Of a stretch of DNA of 64,000 nt, positions 50,755 through 62,015 are shown in pieces. The notes under the pieces were generated by a model that was not told the DNA's origin, made no database searches, and saw nothing but the letters and a program-made list of their open reading frames with translations. Numbering within the stretch: position 1 is the stretch's first letter; each line of letters opens with the position of its first letter. A program made the translations under genes and the position numbers. The stretch is from Amanita rubescens (lineage: Eukaryota; Basidiomycota; Agaricomycetes; Agaricales; Amanitaceae), in the NCBI GenBank assembly GCA_015039365.1, contig WION01000007.1, positions 496,001 to 560,000 on the forward strand, read 5' to 3'.

Positions 50755-53700
50755 ATGGCAGAGACTCAGACTTCTGCTACAGATGCATCACGTATGCTGA
50801 AGTGTTGACTTCTCTAAATCTTTAATTCATGCTGTACTAGTACTAGAACCTCCTATTAATATGCTCAAGGAGAGATACAAATGCCCCCATTTCCGTATTC
50901 TCGTCATAGGAAGGGCCAATGCAGGCAAAACAACTATTCTTGAGAAGGTTTGTGGTGTAGCAAGGGGTACCAAACCAATTGTATATAATGGGCATGGTGT
51001 TGAACTTAAAGGCAAGTTGAATGTACACAATGTTCCAGTGCATATTTAGGATTAACAGTGGATAACAGGCCCTTCTGTACTTGAAGCTCACTTAACACCA
51101 ACAGTTGAGGTGAGTCTACTTCAGGTAACATCAGTGGATGCTTCCAATGATGTGCAACAATTATTTAGCGAGGCATACATGATATTGAATCCCAGATTAC
51201 ATACCCTGGAAGCAACTTTATCTTCCATGATTCACAGGGTTTTGAATCTGGTGACAACAAGGAACTGCATGATGTTTGGAATTTTATTGAGAAAAGAAAT
51301 AGTGTCACTGCAGTGAAAGATCAGTTGCATGCAATTTGGTACACTTATATTATTTCTTTTCCGGCTTCAATGATGACTGACTAAGCTTTTCATCATAGGT
51401 ACTGCATACCCTATGGATAGTGCTCGTCCCATTCTGTCTTCAGAGCTTGAATTCTTCAATGAAGGGACAGGGAAGGGTTAGGTCTAATCCCAAATCTCCA
51501 GGAGACTATTCTAATCAATAAATGTCATTTTCCAGTTCCTTTGGTGACAATATTTACCAAATTTGATGCTCAAGTGATTCAACAATATGGTGACTTGGAT
51601 GATGTAATGGATGATGGAGAAAGGTGGGTAAAGGCCAGGGAGAATGCAAGCAGGACTTTGCAAGAAGTTTATCTTTCTAAAATCTTGAATGCCAACAATC
51701 CTCCAAGGGCATATGTCCAACTGGAAGGTGGGAATCATGGACTGTGCTCAATGCAGAAAGAGATAATGATTTCTAGCAGATATGGATTTGCCAGAGACAG
51801 ACTGTCATGAAGTGACAGAGACAACTGCTAATGCTATTGATGATGCTAGTTTATATGAACTATTTGTTTCAACACAAAGGAACAATCTTGATCTTTGTGT
51901 TAAGTCAGCACTTGAGTAAGAATCATTTCATTTCAGATACCAATGTCAAAGTTTGACATGTTCCAGAAAAGTCTTAATTGCAAACAAACCTAGATGGGAG
52001 AAGGTTCTCTCTGTTGTTCTTCCCAACTTTCCAAATTATTGGGTGAGTTTGAAAGTGCACATCAGAGATACTGAATTACATAAAAACAGCTTAGGAGAAA
52101 AGTAGGTTTCTTCAATAAGAGGTTCATAACAACATTGCTAAGTGATGAACACCCTTTTGATACAGCATGTGAGTGCACCAGTACATATTCAATTGTGTGA
52201 CAGAATTGCACTTTAATAAATGCCATGGTGGGCAGGATGTACATATGTCTCCTTTCAAGTGGGTCAAACAAAAAAATGCTGATGAGAAATGGTATACTTT
52301 CCCACAAACAGCATGTTTTAATGAGTGTGGGTAGCCCCAATTGATCTGCAAACTGAATCTTATGGTATAAACAATAGTGGGCAAGCAATATCAAAATATT
52401 TTTCACTGACAAGCCTCTAATCTCTCAGCATACAGGCTGTGAGTGGCACTGCAACATTGAAAACAAGCAATTTCTTTACTGTGCATTCCATGGTCAAAGA
52501 CAGTGAGTGATACTAGTTCCATTTCATCAGTCAGATGATCTCACATTTTCAAATCTGATGAATGATAGGAAGTGGGTGGCACTGCACTTGATTTTGAAAT
52601 ATTCCCATGCCTTAACTGAAAACAGGCAGTGAGTAACACTATCCTGTGAAACTATCTTATCCCAAGATCAATAATAGGAAGTGAGTGACACTGCTTTTTC
52701 CCCTCTAAGCAATTTGATACCACACAAATAATATAGTATGTAAGTGGTATTGTGCTATATATTTATCTGTACATTAGTAGAGTGACAACACTTCAACCCA
52801 TGACTCTCAACAGAAAGTGAGTGATGATTCATACTCCCCACCAGGCAATCTCATCTTTTGATGAACAGAGAGTAAATAAAACTTTTATCTTCCAGGCATT
52901 CTCATTCTATTCCTTCCCAACAGATGGTGAGTAATGACACTGCACATTATTTCTTATTAATCACACTTCACCTGACCAACAGTTGGTGAGTGAGACTGCA
53001 CCTTTTTATGTCCACATCCGATCATCCCACACCAATCAACAGGATGTGAGCTTTTATTTGCAACATGTGGCCTCACTACATCTTGTCCCATGACCAACAG
53101 AGAGTGAGTGCTGCTGGACATTTTATTTTCTCAATACAATGTACTCATGACCAACTTTACTAGACAGTGAGTAACTTTCTGTCCTTCTATCTGCCAGACA
53201 GTCTCACCACAATATGCCTTCTCTTGACCAATAGACAGTAAGTTATATTACACTTCATTTATGTGCCAGATTATCTCACTGCCCTGACCAACAGTTGGTG
53301 AGTGAATTGCACTTTCTTATGGTATCACACCTCATCCCATGATTAACAGAAAGTGAGTGACACTCAGAAACTTCTTTTTTATCTCACATCTCATCCCATG
53401 AAAACTTAAAGCATGTAAGTGAAACTGAAGTTTATTTCTATTGGTCAGATGATATTTATCATTGTCACATCTCATTCATTGATCAACAGTATGTGAGTAG
53501 TATGGCGTTTACTTCTTTCTGCCAGACAATCTCACATGATTGACAGAGAGTGAGTCGCACTCATCTTCCAGATACTCATTTGGACCCCTCATCTCTTGAC
53601 CAATAGGGTGTGAGTGCCATTGCATCTGCTTTATTAGGGCCCTCTTTCATCCTATGATCAACAGCATGTGAGTAATACTGTGCTTCTTTCTACCAGTGAG

Positions 53701-56064
53701 TCATTTTATCATGACCAATAGGATGTCAGTGCCAGATATGCTTCATCTGATGGAGTCTCATCACATCCACTTCATGATCAATACCCATTAGGATGTGAGT
53801 CACACACCACTTCTTTTTGTTACCACTTCTCATCCCATGATAACAGCATGTAAGTGACTCCTTTGTTACGGGCCCCAAGAGGCTCACTGTCATCATATTT
53901 CATGATCAATAGTTTGTGAGTGATGCACCCTTCCTTTTATTCCATAATCTACCTATGTATGACCAATAGAAAGTGTGTGATACATGCACTTGTTTTATCC
54001 ACCAGACAGACTCACCATATCTCATCATATGACCAACAGCATGTGAGTGGCTCAAGTCCAGCATTTATCTTCCAGATACATAATCTCATCACATCATGTC
54101 TCATGACATAGAGAGTGGGTAACACACTGCTTTTTCTGTTATAATCATACATACTTGTTGACCAACAGAAAGTAAGTAGTAACACTTTCATTTGTTTATC
54201 TGGAAGAAAATTTTACCATATCTCATTTCATATTGAACAAACAAACAGAGAGTAAGTGACATGGCACTTCTTGCTACCCTCCCACCACACCTTATTCCAC
54301 AATGAACAGACAGTGAGTGACATTGTGGCATGCACTGCACTCTAATAGGCAGCTACACCACCTTGACCAAAAGGAAGTAAATGGTGCCAAACATTTTTTA
54401 GATACAATTCTGATCCCAGGTTAAACAGTCAGTGAGTGTGCTTCTTACATCTTCTAGAAAGCCTTGCTACATCTCATCTGATGTGGATTGACAGGAAGTG
54501 AGTTGTGCTGCACTTCCATTTAGCTACCAGATTTTCTCATATCTCATCACATGGTCATCAGTTTGTGAGTGACAACTGGACTTCTATTTATCTGCCAGAC
54601 TCACTGTCTCAACCCATGAGTAATAGACAGTGAGTGATACTACAGATCTGCTAGAAAGTCTCATCACATCTTATCCCATGACTCCCAACAGAGAGTGAGT
54701 AGTGCTTCATTTCCCTTTCTGCCAGACTGTCCCAATTTTTGCCCAATAGGAAGTGAGTAACACTGTGATTTTTTTGACATCTACCATTTGAAAAAATAAT
54801 CAACAGCTGGTGAGTAACACTGAACTTTTCCACTTCCACTATCTGCAAGGCACTTTGCCTATCTCATTCCATAACCAACAGGATGTAAGCAGCATGCACT
54901 TTTTTCATCTACAAGATAATCTCACAATATCTCATCTCATGATCAAAAGACCGTGAGTAACACTGTACTTTGTTTATCTCTCAAAGAAGTCTCACATTCA
55001 TATCCCATAATCAGTATGTAAGTAAAATATACCCTTTTTTATCTGCCAACAGTCTCCCCATGTCATCTCATGATAACAGGGAGTGAGTGATGCTTCACTT
55101 TGTTTATTTGCCAGACAGTCTCACCACACCTTATAATGACCAACTTGCAGAGAGTGAGTGAAACTTTATTTACTCTATCCACCAGAAAGGCTCATCTAAT
55201 GAGAAACAGGCAGTGAGTGGCATTCTATGTTTTACCTGTGACAGTCTCACCACATCTGACCCCATGACAAACAGGATGTGAATGCCACTCCAGTTCTTTT
55301 ATCTGATAGCCAACCTGACCTCATCTCATTACCTGACAAACAGGCAGTGTGTAATTTTGTATCTGCAGAGAATCTTACTACATCTCATCCCATGATTAAC
55401 AGAGGGTGAGTGCCTCAGCACTTGACTCCTGTTGATCTGCTGGATAGTCACTCACTGCATGACAAACAGAAAGTAAGAGTACATAATTCTTTGTAATTTT
55501 AACTTTGATGATTCTACAACACACAGCTTGTACATCCACTTATTGTACTTCTATCACTGCCTTCTGATCTTTTCTAGGTAAGCAGTAGCCATTTAACAGA
55601 CATAGTAAATTACATTTCACTCCATATCACAGGTTGTATGTCTACTGTTCAATTTGATCATCAATAATTACTTTTTATTAGCAAGAGCTGCTGTTTTTGT
55701 TTCAAGAAAAAACAAAGACACTCTCCAGCACTGTACTAAGTTTATTATTATTATTATTGATATAAGTTGCTGACATTGATGCAACTAGCATACAGGTTTT
55801 CAGGTCTTAGCAGGTAATCTCATGATTCTTGCCTACCTCCTTAACTTTTTAATTAAAGTGACTCTATTCAAAGCAATGATCATCATTGTCAAACAATCTT
55901 TCTGGATAAAAAAGGCATTCACAGAATCTATGACAGATGCTTTTTATCAGTTCCAGATGCAGGGCCATGCTGAGAAACTGAAGATTCTCATAAGCCCCAT
56001 ATCTCTACCATCCAGCTCTGAAGATTTCTTTGCATTTCTGCATGGCCATATTGTCCACTTTTGA
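50755..56064 (+). CDS. P-loop GTPase-like gene carrying a 3-nt microexon array; one apparent frameshift
   Basis: Agaricomycete-type GTPase-like protein. ATG 50755 (MAETQTSATDASR). G1/Walker A GRANAGKTT is at 50923-50937, G3 as FIFHDSQGFESGD, G4 as TIFTKFDAQV. Around these are HIESQ-type IHDIESQITYPGSN, DQLHAIWYCIP, MDSARPILSSELEFFNEG, SLYELFVSTQRNNLDLCVKS and EKVLSVVLPNFPNYW, which ends in phase 0 at 52042 before GTGAGT. A candidate 12-nt exon (52090-52101) and about 55 exons of 3 nt follow to 55635, still phase 0. A 10-nt exon (55804-55813) then joins 55859-56064, giving VLAVTLFKAMIIIVKQSFW and TESMTDAFYQFQMQGHAEK. A single extra T at 51412, between CCC and ATGGAT, breaks frame between IWYCIP and MDSARP: either a sequencing error or a pseudogene. 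Role unknown. Confidence 0.6.
52043..55632 (+). repeat. tandem array of about 55 intron-like units with 3-nt exons
   Basis: Each unit runs from a GTGAGT-like donor through a C/T-rich middle and an ATGACC-like branch site to an AACAG-like acceptor, and then 3 nt before the next donor. Triplets (first base): 52166 CAT, 52236 GAT, 52312 CAT, 52378 TGG, 52436 GCT, 52500 ACA, 52569 GAA, 52626 GCA, 52678 GAA, 52737 TAT, 52814 AAA, 52869 AGA, 52924 ATG, 52983 TTG, 53043 GAT, 53101 AGA, 53164 ACA, 53235 ACA, 53295 TTG, 53350 AAA, 53412 CAT, 53490 TAT, 53547 AGA, 53607 GGT, 53665 CAT, 53722 GAT, 53792 GAT, 53847 CAT, 53913 TTT, 53970 AAA, 54040 CAT, 54112 AGA, 54169 AAA, 54249 AGA, 54310 ACA, 54374 GAA, 54429 TCA, 54495 GAA, 54562 TTT, 54627 ACA, 54692 AGA, 54750 GAA, 54807 CTG, 54882 GAT, 54950 ACC, 55015 TAT, 55080 GGA, 55151 AGA, 55210 GCA, 55275 GAT, 55344 GCA, 55403 AGG, 55470 AAA, 55527 CTT, 55633 GTT. 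Spacing is 52-80 nt until the last step. No triplet is a stop. Splicing itself is inferred. Confidence 0.85.
55741..55759. repeat. TTA/ATT trinucleotide microsatellite
   Basis: Six uninterrupted TTA units inside the last long intron of the GTPase-like gene, 37 nt before the acceptor region at 55795-55803. Confidence 0.8.
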
Positions 56065-58264: not shown

Positions 58265-61200
58265 CACTGTGACCCGTGACTGGGTTGTTTTTCGGCGTGA
58301 AAATGACAAGTTTGCTCGTTTCCACACATAAACGGCAACATTGATCAGCCACCGTTTTTCAACATTTAGTGTCAAATTTGAAAGTTGCCATTAAAGGTGC
58401 AAAAAGTATGCTCTTCAGGTAAATTGTACTAATGCCATATGTACTCGTTAGTGATACAATATAATACTGTTCTAAGTCGTTTTTATGGTGTAATTGCGAA
58501 GACAATGAGATGAAGCGCGACTACGACTCGCCGCGGAATGATAACAAGCTGTGAGAAAGATCAATAGAGTCATGTGCCATAGACAATAATCACAAACAAT
58601 GGACTTGGCAATTTTCGCTGTCACCCGAGTCAGCCCCAGTCTCGACTCTCGACTATCACCATTGCCGCCGTTGCAGGCGCGGGAAAGACTTTGGGTCACC
58701 CCGCGTCGCTCGCAGACAAGACTTTGGGTCCGTCTGTGGGCAGGGAAAGACTATGGGTTGCCCCTTGCACAGAATTGCGAGATTTTGTACGTGCCTGAAG
58801 ACCACGCCAAGTCCTCATTCTTTGGTTGCGCACTGACTCACCGATAATGTCTAGGTGCCGTAGTGATGTCCGCGCGAGGAGAAGCGAACTCAAGAGTCAA
58901 GACCTGTCCTCGAAACATTTAAGGCTTAGACCTATGTCAGCCTCTCTCGCTTGGCTCGGCTACAATAACTTGTCCTTCAAGAGTCCCGCAATAGTACTAC
59001 AGCCAAGGATCAGAGCGGGACTTGTGCGTAAGTCACCATTTTCCATTTCTTGTTATTCGAGCTGACAGCGTCATGTAGGCGTTGTCCATCTGATCTTTGT
59101 GCCGAATCTCGACAAGGACTCAACTGGTGTTGTAATAGAGGGCCTCTAGAGCTCTTGCCGGCGCTAGGACCTACAATGAATCGACTGCGACTATCTCCAG
59201 TCCTTTCCCCTCCAAGAAGAAAGGGAGTGCAAGAGAAAATTAGAGACAAGGGCTCGAGCAAGTCCTGTCTAACGTCAAATATAATTAGGTGAGTCGTTGA
59301 ATGACTCAAATGTATTGTCTATGTTAACCTTTATATTGTGGGTACCAGATCAGCTTAAAATCTGATTTCTAGGGCTGTACGAAGATAGCAAGGGATGAGG
59401 TAGAGGGAGGAGAGCCACGAACTAGGTGCGTAGCATACTCTTCATCTCAGTTCAATGTTAATAACGGCCATGTTTAAAGGCCGTGGGCTAGCCACCCCAT
59501 AGTGGGTGGCTTAAGGACTTGCCAGACCCGTTTGTGAGATGTATCAGTCCAAGCACAGTCGGGCTTGGAGACGGGTAGAGTGTCTCGAACTCAGGTGAAT
59601 GGTGGCATATCACTTCAAACGATCAACATATGATAAGTGTCATTGGGTTACTACCACCAGTGTGCCGCGTTCGGTAGTCTGATTGTGAAAAACAGAAGAC
59701 TTTAAAGTCAAGGGACTCGAGGCGAACGACGAGGGCAGCAATGGAATGACGTGCATTGATGTACATATATACTATGTAAATACTACCAGATAATAACATC
59801 TTTTCTGCCAAAAATTGAGCATTCTAAACTGACTGCATTGGGTGGAATTGAGGTCGTTAAATGATTGTTCAGCGAATAATGTTACACATTATGGCGAAAA
59901 TAATCTTACCAACAATTGACGATAATGTCACCACAATCGGTGCAATTCGTAGTGCTAAAATTTTAACGTGTGCTGGCGGAAAGGCACAATTTAAGATCTG
60001 AATTTCATACCCTAAAATCAAGTTAATCAACCGAAATACTTTGTGGTAGGTGTCTATAAATACGCTCCTTTAATTCTGTTTTCACCGTGTGAAAAACAGC
60101 CATCCCACGGCGCCCAGTGTCAGCAATGAAGTTACATAAACAAGAAACAATATGAATAATCACTGGGCGCCGTGGGATGGCTGTTTTTCACACGGTGAAA
60201 ACAGAATTAAAGGAGCGTATTTATAGACACCTACCACAAAGTATTTCGGTTGATTAACTTGATTTTAGGGTATGAAATTCAGATCTTAAATTGTGCCTTT
60301 CCGCCAGCACACGTTAAAATTTTAGCACTACGAATTGCACCGATTGTGGTGACATTATCGTCAATTGTTGGTAAGATTATTTTCGCCATAATGTGTAACA
60401 TTATTCGCTGAACAATCATTTAACGACCTCAATTCCACCCAATGCAGTCAGTTTAGAATGCTCAATTTTTGGCAGAAAAGATGTTATTATCTGGTAGTAT
60501 TTACATAGTATATATGTACATCAATGCACGTCATTCCATTGCTGCCCTCGTCGTTCGCCTCGAGTCCCTTGACTTTAAAGTCTTCTGTTTTTCACAATCA
60601 GACTACCGAACGCGGCACACTGGTGGTAGTAACCCAATGACACTTATCATATGTTGATCGTTTGAAGTGATATGCCACCATTCACCTGAGTTCGAGACAC
60701 TCTACCCGTCTCCAAGCCCGACTGTGCTTGGACTGATACATCTCACAAACGGGTCTGGCAAGTCCTTAAGCCACCCACTATGGGGTGGCTAGCCCACGGC
60801 CTTTAAACATGGCCGTTATTAACATTGAACTGAGATGAAGAGTATGCTACGCACCTAGTTCGTGGCTCTCCTCCCTCTACCTCATCCCTTGCTATCTTCG
60901 TACAGCCCTAGAAATCAGATTTTAAGCTGATCTGGTACCCACAATATAAAGGTTAACATAGACAATACATTTGAGTCATTCAACGACTCACCTAATTATA
61001 TTTGACGTTAGACAGGACTTGCTCGAGCCCTTGTCTCTAATTTTCTCTTGCACTCCCTTTCTTCTTGGAGGGGAAAGGACTGGAGATAGTCGCAGTCGAT
61101 TCATTGTAGGTCCTAGCGCCGGCAAGAGCTCTAGAGGCCCTCTATTACAACACCAGTTGAGTCCTTGTCGAGATTCGGCACAAAGATCAGATGGACAACG

Positions 61201-62015
61201 CCTACATGACGCTGTCAGCTCGAATAACAAGAAATGGAAAATGGTGACTTACGCACAAGTCCCGCTCTGATCCTTGGCTGTAGTACTATTGCGGGACTCT
61301 TGAAGGACAAGTTATTGTAGCCGAGCCAAGCGAGAGAGGCTGACATAGGTCTAAGCCTTAAATGTTTCGAGGACAGGTCTTGACTCTTGAGTTCGCTTCT
61401 CCTCGCGCGGACATCACTACGGCACCTAGACATTATCGGTGAGTCAGTGCGCAACCAAAGAATGAGGACTTGGCGTGGTCTTCAGGCACGTACAAAATCT
61501 CGCAATTCTGTGCAAGGGGCAACCCATAGTCTTTCCCTGCCCACAGACGGACCCAAAGTCTTGTCTGCGAGCGACGCGGGGTGACCCAAAGTCTTTCCCG
61601 CGCCTGCAACGGCGGCAATGGTGATAGTCGAGAGTCGAGACTGGGGCTGACTCGGGTGACAGCGAAAATTGCCAAGTCCATTGTTTGTGATTATTGTCTA
61701 TGGCACATGACTCTATTGATCTTTCTCACAGCTTGTTATCATTCCGCGGCGAGTCGTAGTCGCGCTTCATCTCATTGTCTTCGCAATTACACCATAAAAA
61801 CGACTTAGAACAGTATTATATTGTATCACTAACGAGTACATATGGCATTAGTACAATTTACCTGAAGAGCATACTTTTTGCACCTTTAATGGCAACTTTC
61901 AAATTTGACACTAAATGTTGAAAAACGGTGGCTGATCAATGTTGCCGTTTATGTGTGGAAACGAGCAAACTTGTCATTTTCACGCCGAAAAACAACCCAG
62001 TCACGGGTCACAGTG
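58265..62015. repeat. large perfect inverted repeat, two 1,855-nt arms and a 41-nt spacer
   Basis: Left arm 58265-60119 and right arm 60161-62015 have exactly equal length and mirror each other; every open frame in one arm recurs with the same translation in the other. The spacer is 60120-60160. Outer ends read CACTGTGACCCGTGACTGGG; inner ends read GGCGCCCAGTG. No recognisable transposase or other domain lies in the arms (longest frame 99 codons). Inside each arm are smaller signals: three copies of AAGACTTTGGGT or near it (58685-58757) and a hairpin GCCACCCCATAGTGGGTGGC near 59491-59510. No clear target-site duplication flanks the ends. It could be a fold-back element, a recent inverted duplication or an assembly artefact. 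Confidence 0.9.

Follow-up and report, generated by a model that had tools for sequence, protein, structure and literature searches.

How finely can introns divide a coding sequence? This question is raised by a GTPase-like gene in a stretch of 64,000 nucleotides (nt) from the Amanita rubescens genome (contig C650, positions 496001-560000, within a genome of 75.7 Mb and 786 contigs; hereafter the window), in which eight ordinary exons are followed by a long succession of candidate exons of exactly 3 nt. The original prediction for this locus had proposed about 55 such exons between 52166 and 55635; we count 54, of which 49 form an unbroken chain at the 52- to 80-nt spacing that it described. 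Based on splice-site statistics, on comparison of paralogous arrays, and on their agreement with independent proteins, we conclude that A. rubescens likely splices out each short intron and joins 54 single codons into a variable protein segment, a reading to which we assign a probability of about 0.87. Throughout the text, C-numbers denote contigs and L-numbers loci of the A. rubescens genome, and P-numbers the proteins that we compared.

Splice sites and exon model of the window array

The 3-nt spacing between acceptor and donor sets the array apart from the rest of the window. On the plus strand of the whole window, the pattern YAG-N(k)-GTRWG occurs 44 times for k = 3, with 43 of these sites inside the array, compared to 2 to 12 times at each of the remaining values of k (0 to 12). 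A splice-site matrix whose training set excluded the window recovered the same unbroken chain of 49 sites (52436-55470); with this type of matrix, runs longer than 1 were absent from all other 8-kb tiles on both strands, and the longest run in 100 Markov resamples of the array was 1. Within the chain, donors are GTGAGT (31 sites), GTAAGT (7 sites), or near variants of these (11 sites), in line with the donor preference first reported for this locus; acceptors are CAG (32), TAG (13), or AAG (4), and introns measure 49 to 77 nt, with a median of 59 nt. Five more 3-nt exons beyond the chain (at 52166, 52236, 52378, 55527, and 55633) bring the total to 54, all of which are small enough to count as microexons (≤30 nt).

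Because six guide relatives are too distant in the variable segment, the gene model was built from splice sites and then checked at both ends. It comprises the following features:

50755-50791, 50841-51011, 51069-51109, and 51169-51338, plus strand: exons 1 to 4 of the eight ordinary exons of the GTPase-like gene
51399-51476, 51536-51727, 51780-51915, and 51967-52042, plus strand: exons 5 to 8 of the eight ordinary exons
52090-52101, plus strand: 12-nt exon LRRK, aligned with YRRT of P0001; the paralogue L009 has a 12-nt exon at the equivalent place
52166-52168, plus strand: 3-nt exon CAT (H), the first of 54
52236-52238, plus strand: 3-nt exon GAT (D)
52312-52326, plus strand: 15-nt exon HVLMS, where P0001 reads HVLMK
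52378-52380, plus strand: 3-nt exon TGG (W) with a GC donor, GCAAGC; W is also a separate 3-nt exon in L009
52436-55472, plus strand: 49 consecutive 3-nt exons with introns of 49-77 nt, ATEAEYKRMLDRTTLKHYRGHDDHFKHRKRTESEFTRELDTYGRADARK
55527-55529, plus strand: 3-nt exon CTT (L)
55530-55632, plus strand: 103-nt intron with an internal AG-GT near 55578
55633-55635, plus strand: 3-nt exon GTT (V), the last of 54
55682-55732, plus strand: exon QELLFLFQEKTKTLSST, which opens the C-terminal part
55789-55813, plus strand: 25-nt exon HTGFQVLA(A), of the same size in L009
55874-56064, plus strand: final exon AMIIIVKQSFWIKK...HGHIVHF and stop

The eight ordinary exons (50755-52042) encode the motifs GRANAGKT, HDSQGF, and TKFD and end in phase 0 on ...LPNFPNYW. 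With one codon per exon, a single open frame extends over 51780-56064 and reads ...LPNFPNYW-LRRK-H-D-HVLMS-W-(49 codons)-L-V-QELLFLFQEKTKTLSSTHTGFQVLAAMIIIVKQSFWIKK...HIVHF-stop; this spliced reading agrees with relatives at both ends, that is, with HVLM-W in P0001 and with the C-terminus in P0034 and P0022. In the array, every exon length is divisible by three, phase 0 is kept, and none of the codons is a stop, so that these two claims of the original prediction hold, as does its 12-nt exon at 52090-52101. Its flanking exons needed correction: a start at 55804 gives way to an exon at 55789-55813, preceded by another at 55682-55732, and the 15-nt exon at 52312-52326 had gone unlisted. Near the array end, the 103-nt intron contains a zero-length exon (AG followed by GTAAGC, 55570-55585), which may be a former unit whose codon was lost and which now acts as a recursive splice point.

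Codons of paralogous arrays in independent proteins

Splice-site scores, with no protein guide, were used to read the array peptides, which were then compared with 120 proteins. The peptide of L009 matched P0022 at 78.7% over 47 columns (E = 2e-21) and, weakly, P0034 and P0021, and that of L012 matched P0022 at 47.5% over 40 columns, compared to zero matches for 189 shuffled or reversed peptides against the same 120 proteins. P0022 (478 amino acids) is encoded on a contig of 1,486 nt, which is too short for array-type introns; its source therefore cannot contain them and is probably a transcript in a metatranscriptome. In a spliced alignment of L009 to P0022, 46 of 47 3-nt exons were aligned, 39 of them to an identical residue, 5 to a similar one, and 2 to another, while frame shifts of -2, -1, +1, and +2 at the same 46 positions left 5, 6, 5, and 3 identities. 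Likewise, 20 versions of P0022 with a shuffled tail reached alignment scores of 1474 to 1510, compared to 1742 for the real protein. P0020 is identical at 30 of 44 codons of L059 and at 32 of 44 codons of L060 (0 to 5 in shifted frames), and nine more guided alignments, which depend on their guides and are weaker evidence, gave 11 to 23 identities among 19 to 38 aligned codons. Among the matches listed, genome exons are at most 90% identical to P0020 and at most 79% identical to P0021; these proteins therefore come from other species or from unlisted paralogues, and their agreement with the arrays represents evolutionary conservation. The proposal that introns separate some 55 successive codons from one another thus finds support in paralogous arrays that spell peptides largely present in intron-free sequences. 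The alternative raised with it, skipping of the whole block, is made less likely by these paralogue matches, also for the window gene, which gave no match to a protein.

The codons also behave as coding sequence when arrays are compared with each other. There is no stop among 583 codons in 13 arrays, compared to 31.3 expected from base frequencies. Between L009 and L012, similarity of the intron interiors is at background (0.57 versus 0.55), whereas the codon peptides align (72, compared to a maximum of 26 in 100 shuffles). This pattern extends to the three older paralogues L009, L010, and L012: the interiors of their introns are no more alike than background, yet the codon peptides of all three pairs beat all shuffles. 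Across eight array pairs, codon peptides beat all 100 shuffles in five and did not in three (L009/L059, window/L009, and L013/L059). A comparison of L059 with L060 gave no selection signal because the two loci are nearly identical.

Extent of the arrays in the genome

Genome-wide, YAGNNNGTGAGTG with its 3-nt gap (strict pattern, YAG-NNN-GTGAGTG) occurs at 2679+2656 sites (5,335), compared to 160+153 (313) in the reversed control. The pattern with a 4-nt gap has 116+108 (224) sites and 265+181 in its own reversed control, and that with a 6-nt gap has 223+201 and 207+267, respectively. With an average of 19.5 strict sites in the 15 arrays read, this corresponds to about 257 arrays genome-wide, a rough estimate in which near-duplicate loci suggest some double counting. 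We sampled the first 100 of 178 TAT-codon sites, which form 53 clusters, and found a same-strand GTPase exon no more than 7 kb upstream of at least 43 of the 53 (32 + 11), compared to 3 + 0 with strands flipped. The genome holds 238 matches to the GTPase exon, not all of them separate genes. Five more GTPase stretches yielded chains of 23 to 38 sites in L047, L049, and L050, only 6 sites in L046, and no chain in the piece read of L048; not every GTPase locus carries an array within the piece read.

Both C650 and C88 start inside a perfect array intron (positions 4-65 in each contig), an indication that assemblies tend to break at young arrays, whose number may be underestimated. Annotated Amanita GTPase-like proteins (P0005, P0007, P0009, P0030, and P0079) stop soon past, or jump from, an FPHYW-like motif, where arrays would start, and the same ending or jump is seen in proteins of Amanita brunnescens; the arrays may be genus-wide and misannotated. 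In the openly licensed papers searched, we found no account of long runs of one-codon exons. Apart from the array, the window contains a perfect inverted repeat (58265-60119 and 60161-62015, with 1,855-nt arms that are 100% complementary and 41 nt between them), which is a very recent palindrome or an assembly artifact.

Young arrays and the structure of the unit

The loci L011 and L013 have a common 62-nt intron consensus, for which we found 410 matches in the genome; among the matches listed, identity is 100% over 62 nt, and many lie exactly 65 nt apart, on more than 10 contigs. Near-identical introns therefore recur at many loci, as they do in introners, and L061 to L064 consist of tandem head-to-tail units with a 65-nt period, as in minisatellites; the older window array went undetected by Tandem Repeats Finder. 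In these four young loci, 16 to 29 codons per array have perfect intron copies on both sides, and the codons vary, with CGA (7), GGA (6), CAA (3), GAA (3), and CTT (2) in L061 and CTA (12), CAA (8), CGA (7), and CTT (2) in L064. Pairwise differences in L061 amount to 0.448 per codon letter versus 0.0013 per intron letter. Between L062 and L063, 9 of 105 codon letters (plus one length change) and 5 of 2172 intron letters differ, with a difference of 1.2% in the upstream 2 kb, and between L061 and the other three young loci, the upstream sequence differs by about 8% (332 to 454 gapped columns), yet the intron is the same. Exons of 4 and 2 nt (CTTC; AATT, CATT, and CA) occur amid near-perfect introns in L063 and L064, where insertions and deletions are found mostly at codons.

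The small number of codons, most of them single-change neighbors, suggests that codon and intron together form a tandemly repeated unit, with recombination shuffling its variants. Simple duplication of neighboring units received no general support from a codon-doublet test. That change is concentrated in the codon requires either selection that favors diversity, or exchange among arrays, or mutation targeted to the codon, and the data favor none of these. Few codons end in C (2 of 346 in seven arrays and 12 of 583 in 13 arrays), whereas the base is frequent in the ordinary exons of these genes (255 of 1658); this scarcity would be expected if the third base must precede a donor and likely reflects a splice-site constraint on codon choice.

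The protein product

The array segment follows the GTPase part and precedes a helical part at the C-terminus. P0021 and P0034 are identical at 279 of 293 residues before the segment and at 87 of 92 after it (95% in the flanks), compared to 34 of 79 columns, with 21 gapped, inside it, where these close relatives also differ in length (77 versus 60 residues). The predicted structure of P0022 has a mean predicted local distance difference test (pLDDT) score of 76.6, and residues 316-359, inside the segment, score below 50. The protein is GTPase-like by its motifs, with Pfam scores below the curated cutoff, and Foldseek matches to the dynamin-like BDLP, IniA, and interferon-inducible GTPases (target template modeling [TM] score of 0.19 to 0.41 among the best twelve) are too weak to assign a function. 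We predict that the product, which belongs to a large gene family, carries a hypervariable, poorly ordered segment that separates the GTPase domain from the helical C-terminal part. Hypervariability in so large a family suggests recognition, but a role in recognition or self/non-self discrimination is our guess.

Discussion

The unit of these arrays is a codon and a complete-looking intron, with a GTGAGT-like donor, a TGAC-like branch site close to its end, and a YAG acceptor. Such introns would be recognized singly, by intron definition, and 5′ to 3′ removal would be the simplest order because each step would leave the next donor behind a normal upstream exon. Since every exon of the window array has a length divisible by three and keeps phase 0, the frame survives when units are gained, lost, or skipped. 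A minisatellite is the likely source of new units—in the youngest arrays, 65-nt repeats combine one codon, which varies, with an identical 62-nt intron—and by recombining at these identical introns, arrays would reshuffle, gain, or lose residues one at a time. More tentatively, and at somewhat worse than even odds, we propose that Amanita possesses a system for single-residue diversification, in which a couple hundred GTPase receptor-like genes carry a minisatellite of codon plus intron, the introns act as homology arms for the frame-safe gain, loss, and swap of residues within and between loci, and the spliceosome erases the scaffold.

Several observations weigh against the splicing of single codons or the amplification of units. 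The splicing of the window gene is read entirely from DNA and protein comparison, with codon support past the first codons of the array coming from the paralogues L009, L059, and L060, and only 2 of 9 array peptides match any of the 120 proteins; the other 7, including that of the window, match none. The window peptide did not align to the L009 array (5, compared to a shuffled maximum of 30), the window tail, searched by itself against the database, matched no protein, and a guided alignment of the window gene to the six relatives, which are too distant in the variable segment, jumped the array instead of following it cleanly. Relative to the relatives, which read WYCIPMDS, the exon at 51399-51476 has a one-base frame change, so that the window copy may be a recent pseudogene or contain an assembly or sequencing error. 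The short, intron-free contigs of about 1.5 kb are taken for transcripts because of their shortness. As to the units, the 2- and 4-nt exons of L063 and L064 could be damage or assembly error, and assembly polishing could have sharpened the identity of the introns. Identical codons do not in general adjoin each other more often than expected (L010 is the only one of 8 arrays with such an excess; P = 0.02). Units that share a codon resemble each other slightly more in the intron that follows, but this holds only for the two younger arrays tested (P = 0.03 and 0.04); the effect is absent for the preceding intron and in three older arrays.

The main rival to unit amplification is the insertion of introns into older coding sequence, with introner-like copies placed at every codon boundary of a once uninterrupted segment. 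This origin is favored by the identical 62-nt introns beside different codons, by L011, where near-identical introns adjoin unrelated codons, and by the lack of a general excess of neighboring identical codons. However, the 65-nt periodicity and the mostly single-step codon sets (CTA, CAA, CGA, and CTT in L064; CGA, GGA, CAA, GAA, and CTT in L061) look like variants of a tandem repeat, close relatives differ in segment length (77 versus 60 residues in P0021 and P0034), and a genome search for the P0022 tail in uninterrupted form, which had no positive control, gave no match. We regard insertion as the less likely origin. Combinatorial alternative splicing, in which donors and acceptors pair freely and each gene yields many in-frame isoforms, would exploit the interchangeability of the units, the phase 0 of most arrays, and the nearly identical splice sites of young ones; yet the two well-aligned relatives keep the genomic order with few gaps, as constitutive inclusion predicts, and we doubt that free pairing is the rule.

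A third possibility is that the codons are excluded from the protein, the block being skipped as one intron or removed stepwise with the triplets as platforms for recursive splicing. The deposited proteins P0030 and P0079 of the same genome, which stop near the start of the block or jump it, the zero-length AG-GT exon inside the window array, and the window tail without a protein match all fit this scenario. It is nevertheless very improbable in our view: the codons are present, in order, in independent intron-free sequences, 583 codons without a stop are more than a mere platform would need, and codon peptides stay alike where intron similarity is lost. A recursive platform would be absent from mature RNA, whereas relatives keep these codons in their proteins and, to judge from its paralogues, so would the window gene. 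That the array is a degenerate noncoding tandem repeat merely resembling splice sites is hardly credible: young arrays are tandem repeats and the window introns are weakly similar to each other, but the lack of stops, the in-frame place between two conserved protein parts, the strict 3-nt spacing genome-wide, and the matches of paralogous arrays to independent proteins contradict it.

Microexons of plants, animals, and Trichoderma Xlr2 may be as short as 1 nt, have GTRAGT-like donors, and are often missed by annotation (PMC8831610; Xlr2, PMC11121469), and the Amanita exons resemble them in extreme shortness and donor type. In the papers cited, adjacent microexons number two in rice (PMC8831610) and three in RPS24 (PMC11162997), so that the published cases described there are single or in twos and threes, whereas Amanita has about 40 to 70 one-codon exons in succession, in about 257 arrays. 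Microexon genes (MEGs) of Schistosoma have 10 to 20 short exons per gene, of 3-81 bp or 6-81 bp and mostly 15 bp, and introns of 0.1 to 5 kb (PMC10526429); they share with the arrays short exons that are mostly multiples of three and variable proteins, but exons of 3 nt and introns of about 60 nt (49-77 nt in the chain) do not have MEG sizes, and MEG products are secreted, whereas the Amanita product is GTPase-like. Introners likewise consist of many near-identical introns in one genome (PMC9860276 and PMC4457414), and the main text of an introner survey mentions neither Amanita nor Basidiomycota (PMC9860276); unlike introners, the Amanita copies are in tandem, 3 nt apart, and mostly beside one gene family. 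Scattered insertion into unrelated genes is an introner trait; at least 43 of the 53 clusters sampled here follow GTPase exons, no search for single copies elsewhere having been made.

Minisatellites with interspersed variant repeats are a known repeat type, and the tandem 65-nt units of Amanita, with few variants interspersed, are like them, except that the variation sits in the codon and the remainder of the unit is an intron. Finally, an acceptor adjoins a donor in recursive splicing (RS-exons, PMC6224609) and in stwintrons (PMC12403724), as in the arrays. In contrast to recursive splicing, the 3-nt exons of Amanita paralogues appear in protein, and in contrast to stwintrons, the introns are complete and lie side by side rather than nested.

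If the reading of one codon per exon is true, these genes set a new limit on gene fragmentation, with about 40 to 70 one-codon exons per run in about 257 arrays, and challenge both current views of the minimal exon and of how the spliceosome handles splice sites 3 nt apart. The arrays would also offer a route to vary a protein residue by residue without risk to the frame, and the Amanita gene models of this GTPase-like family are likely wrong at the C-terminus.

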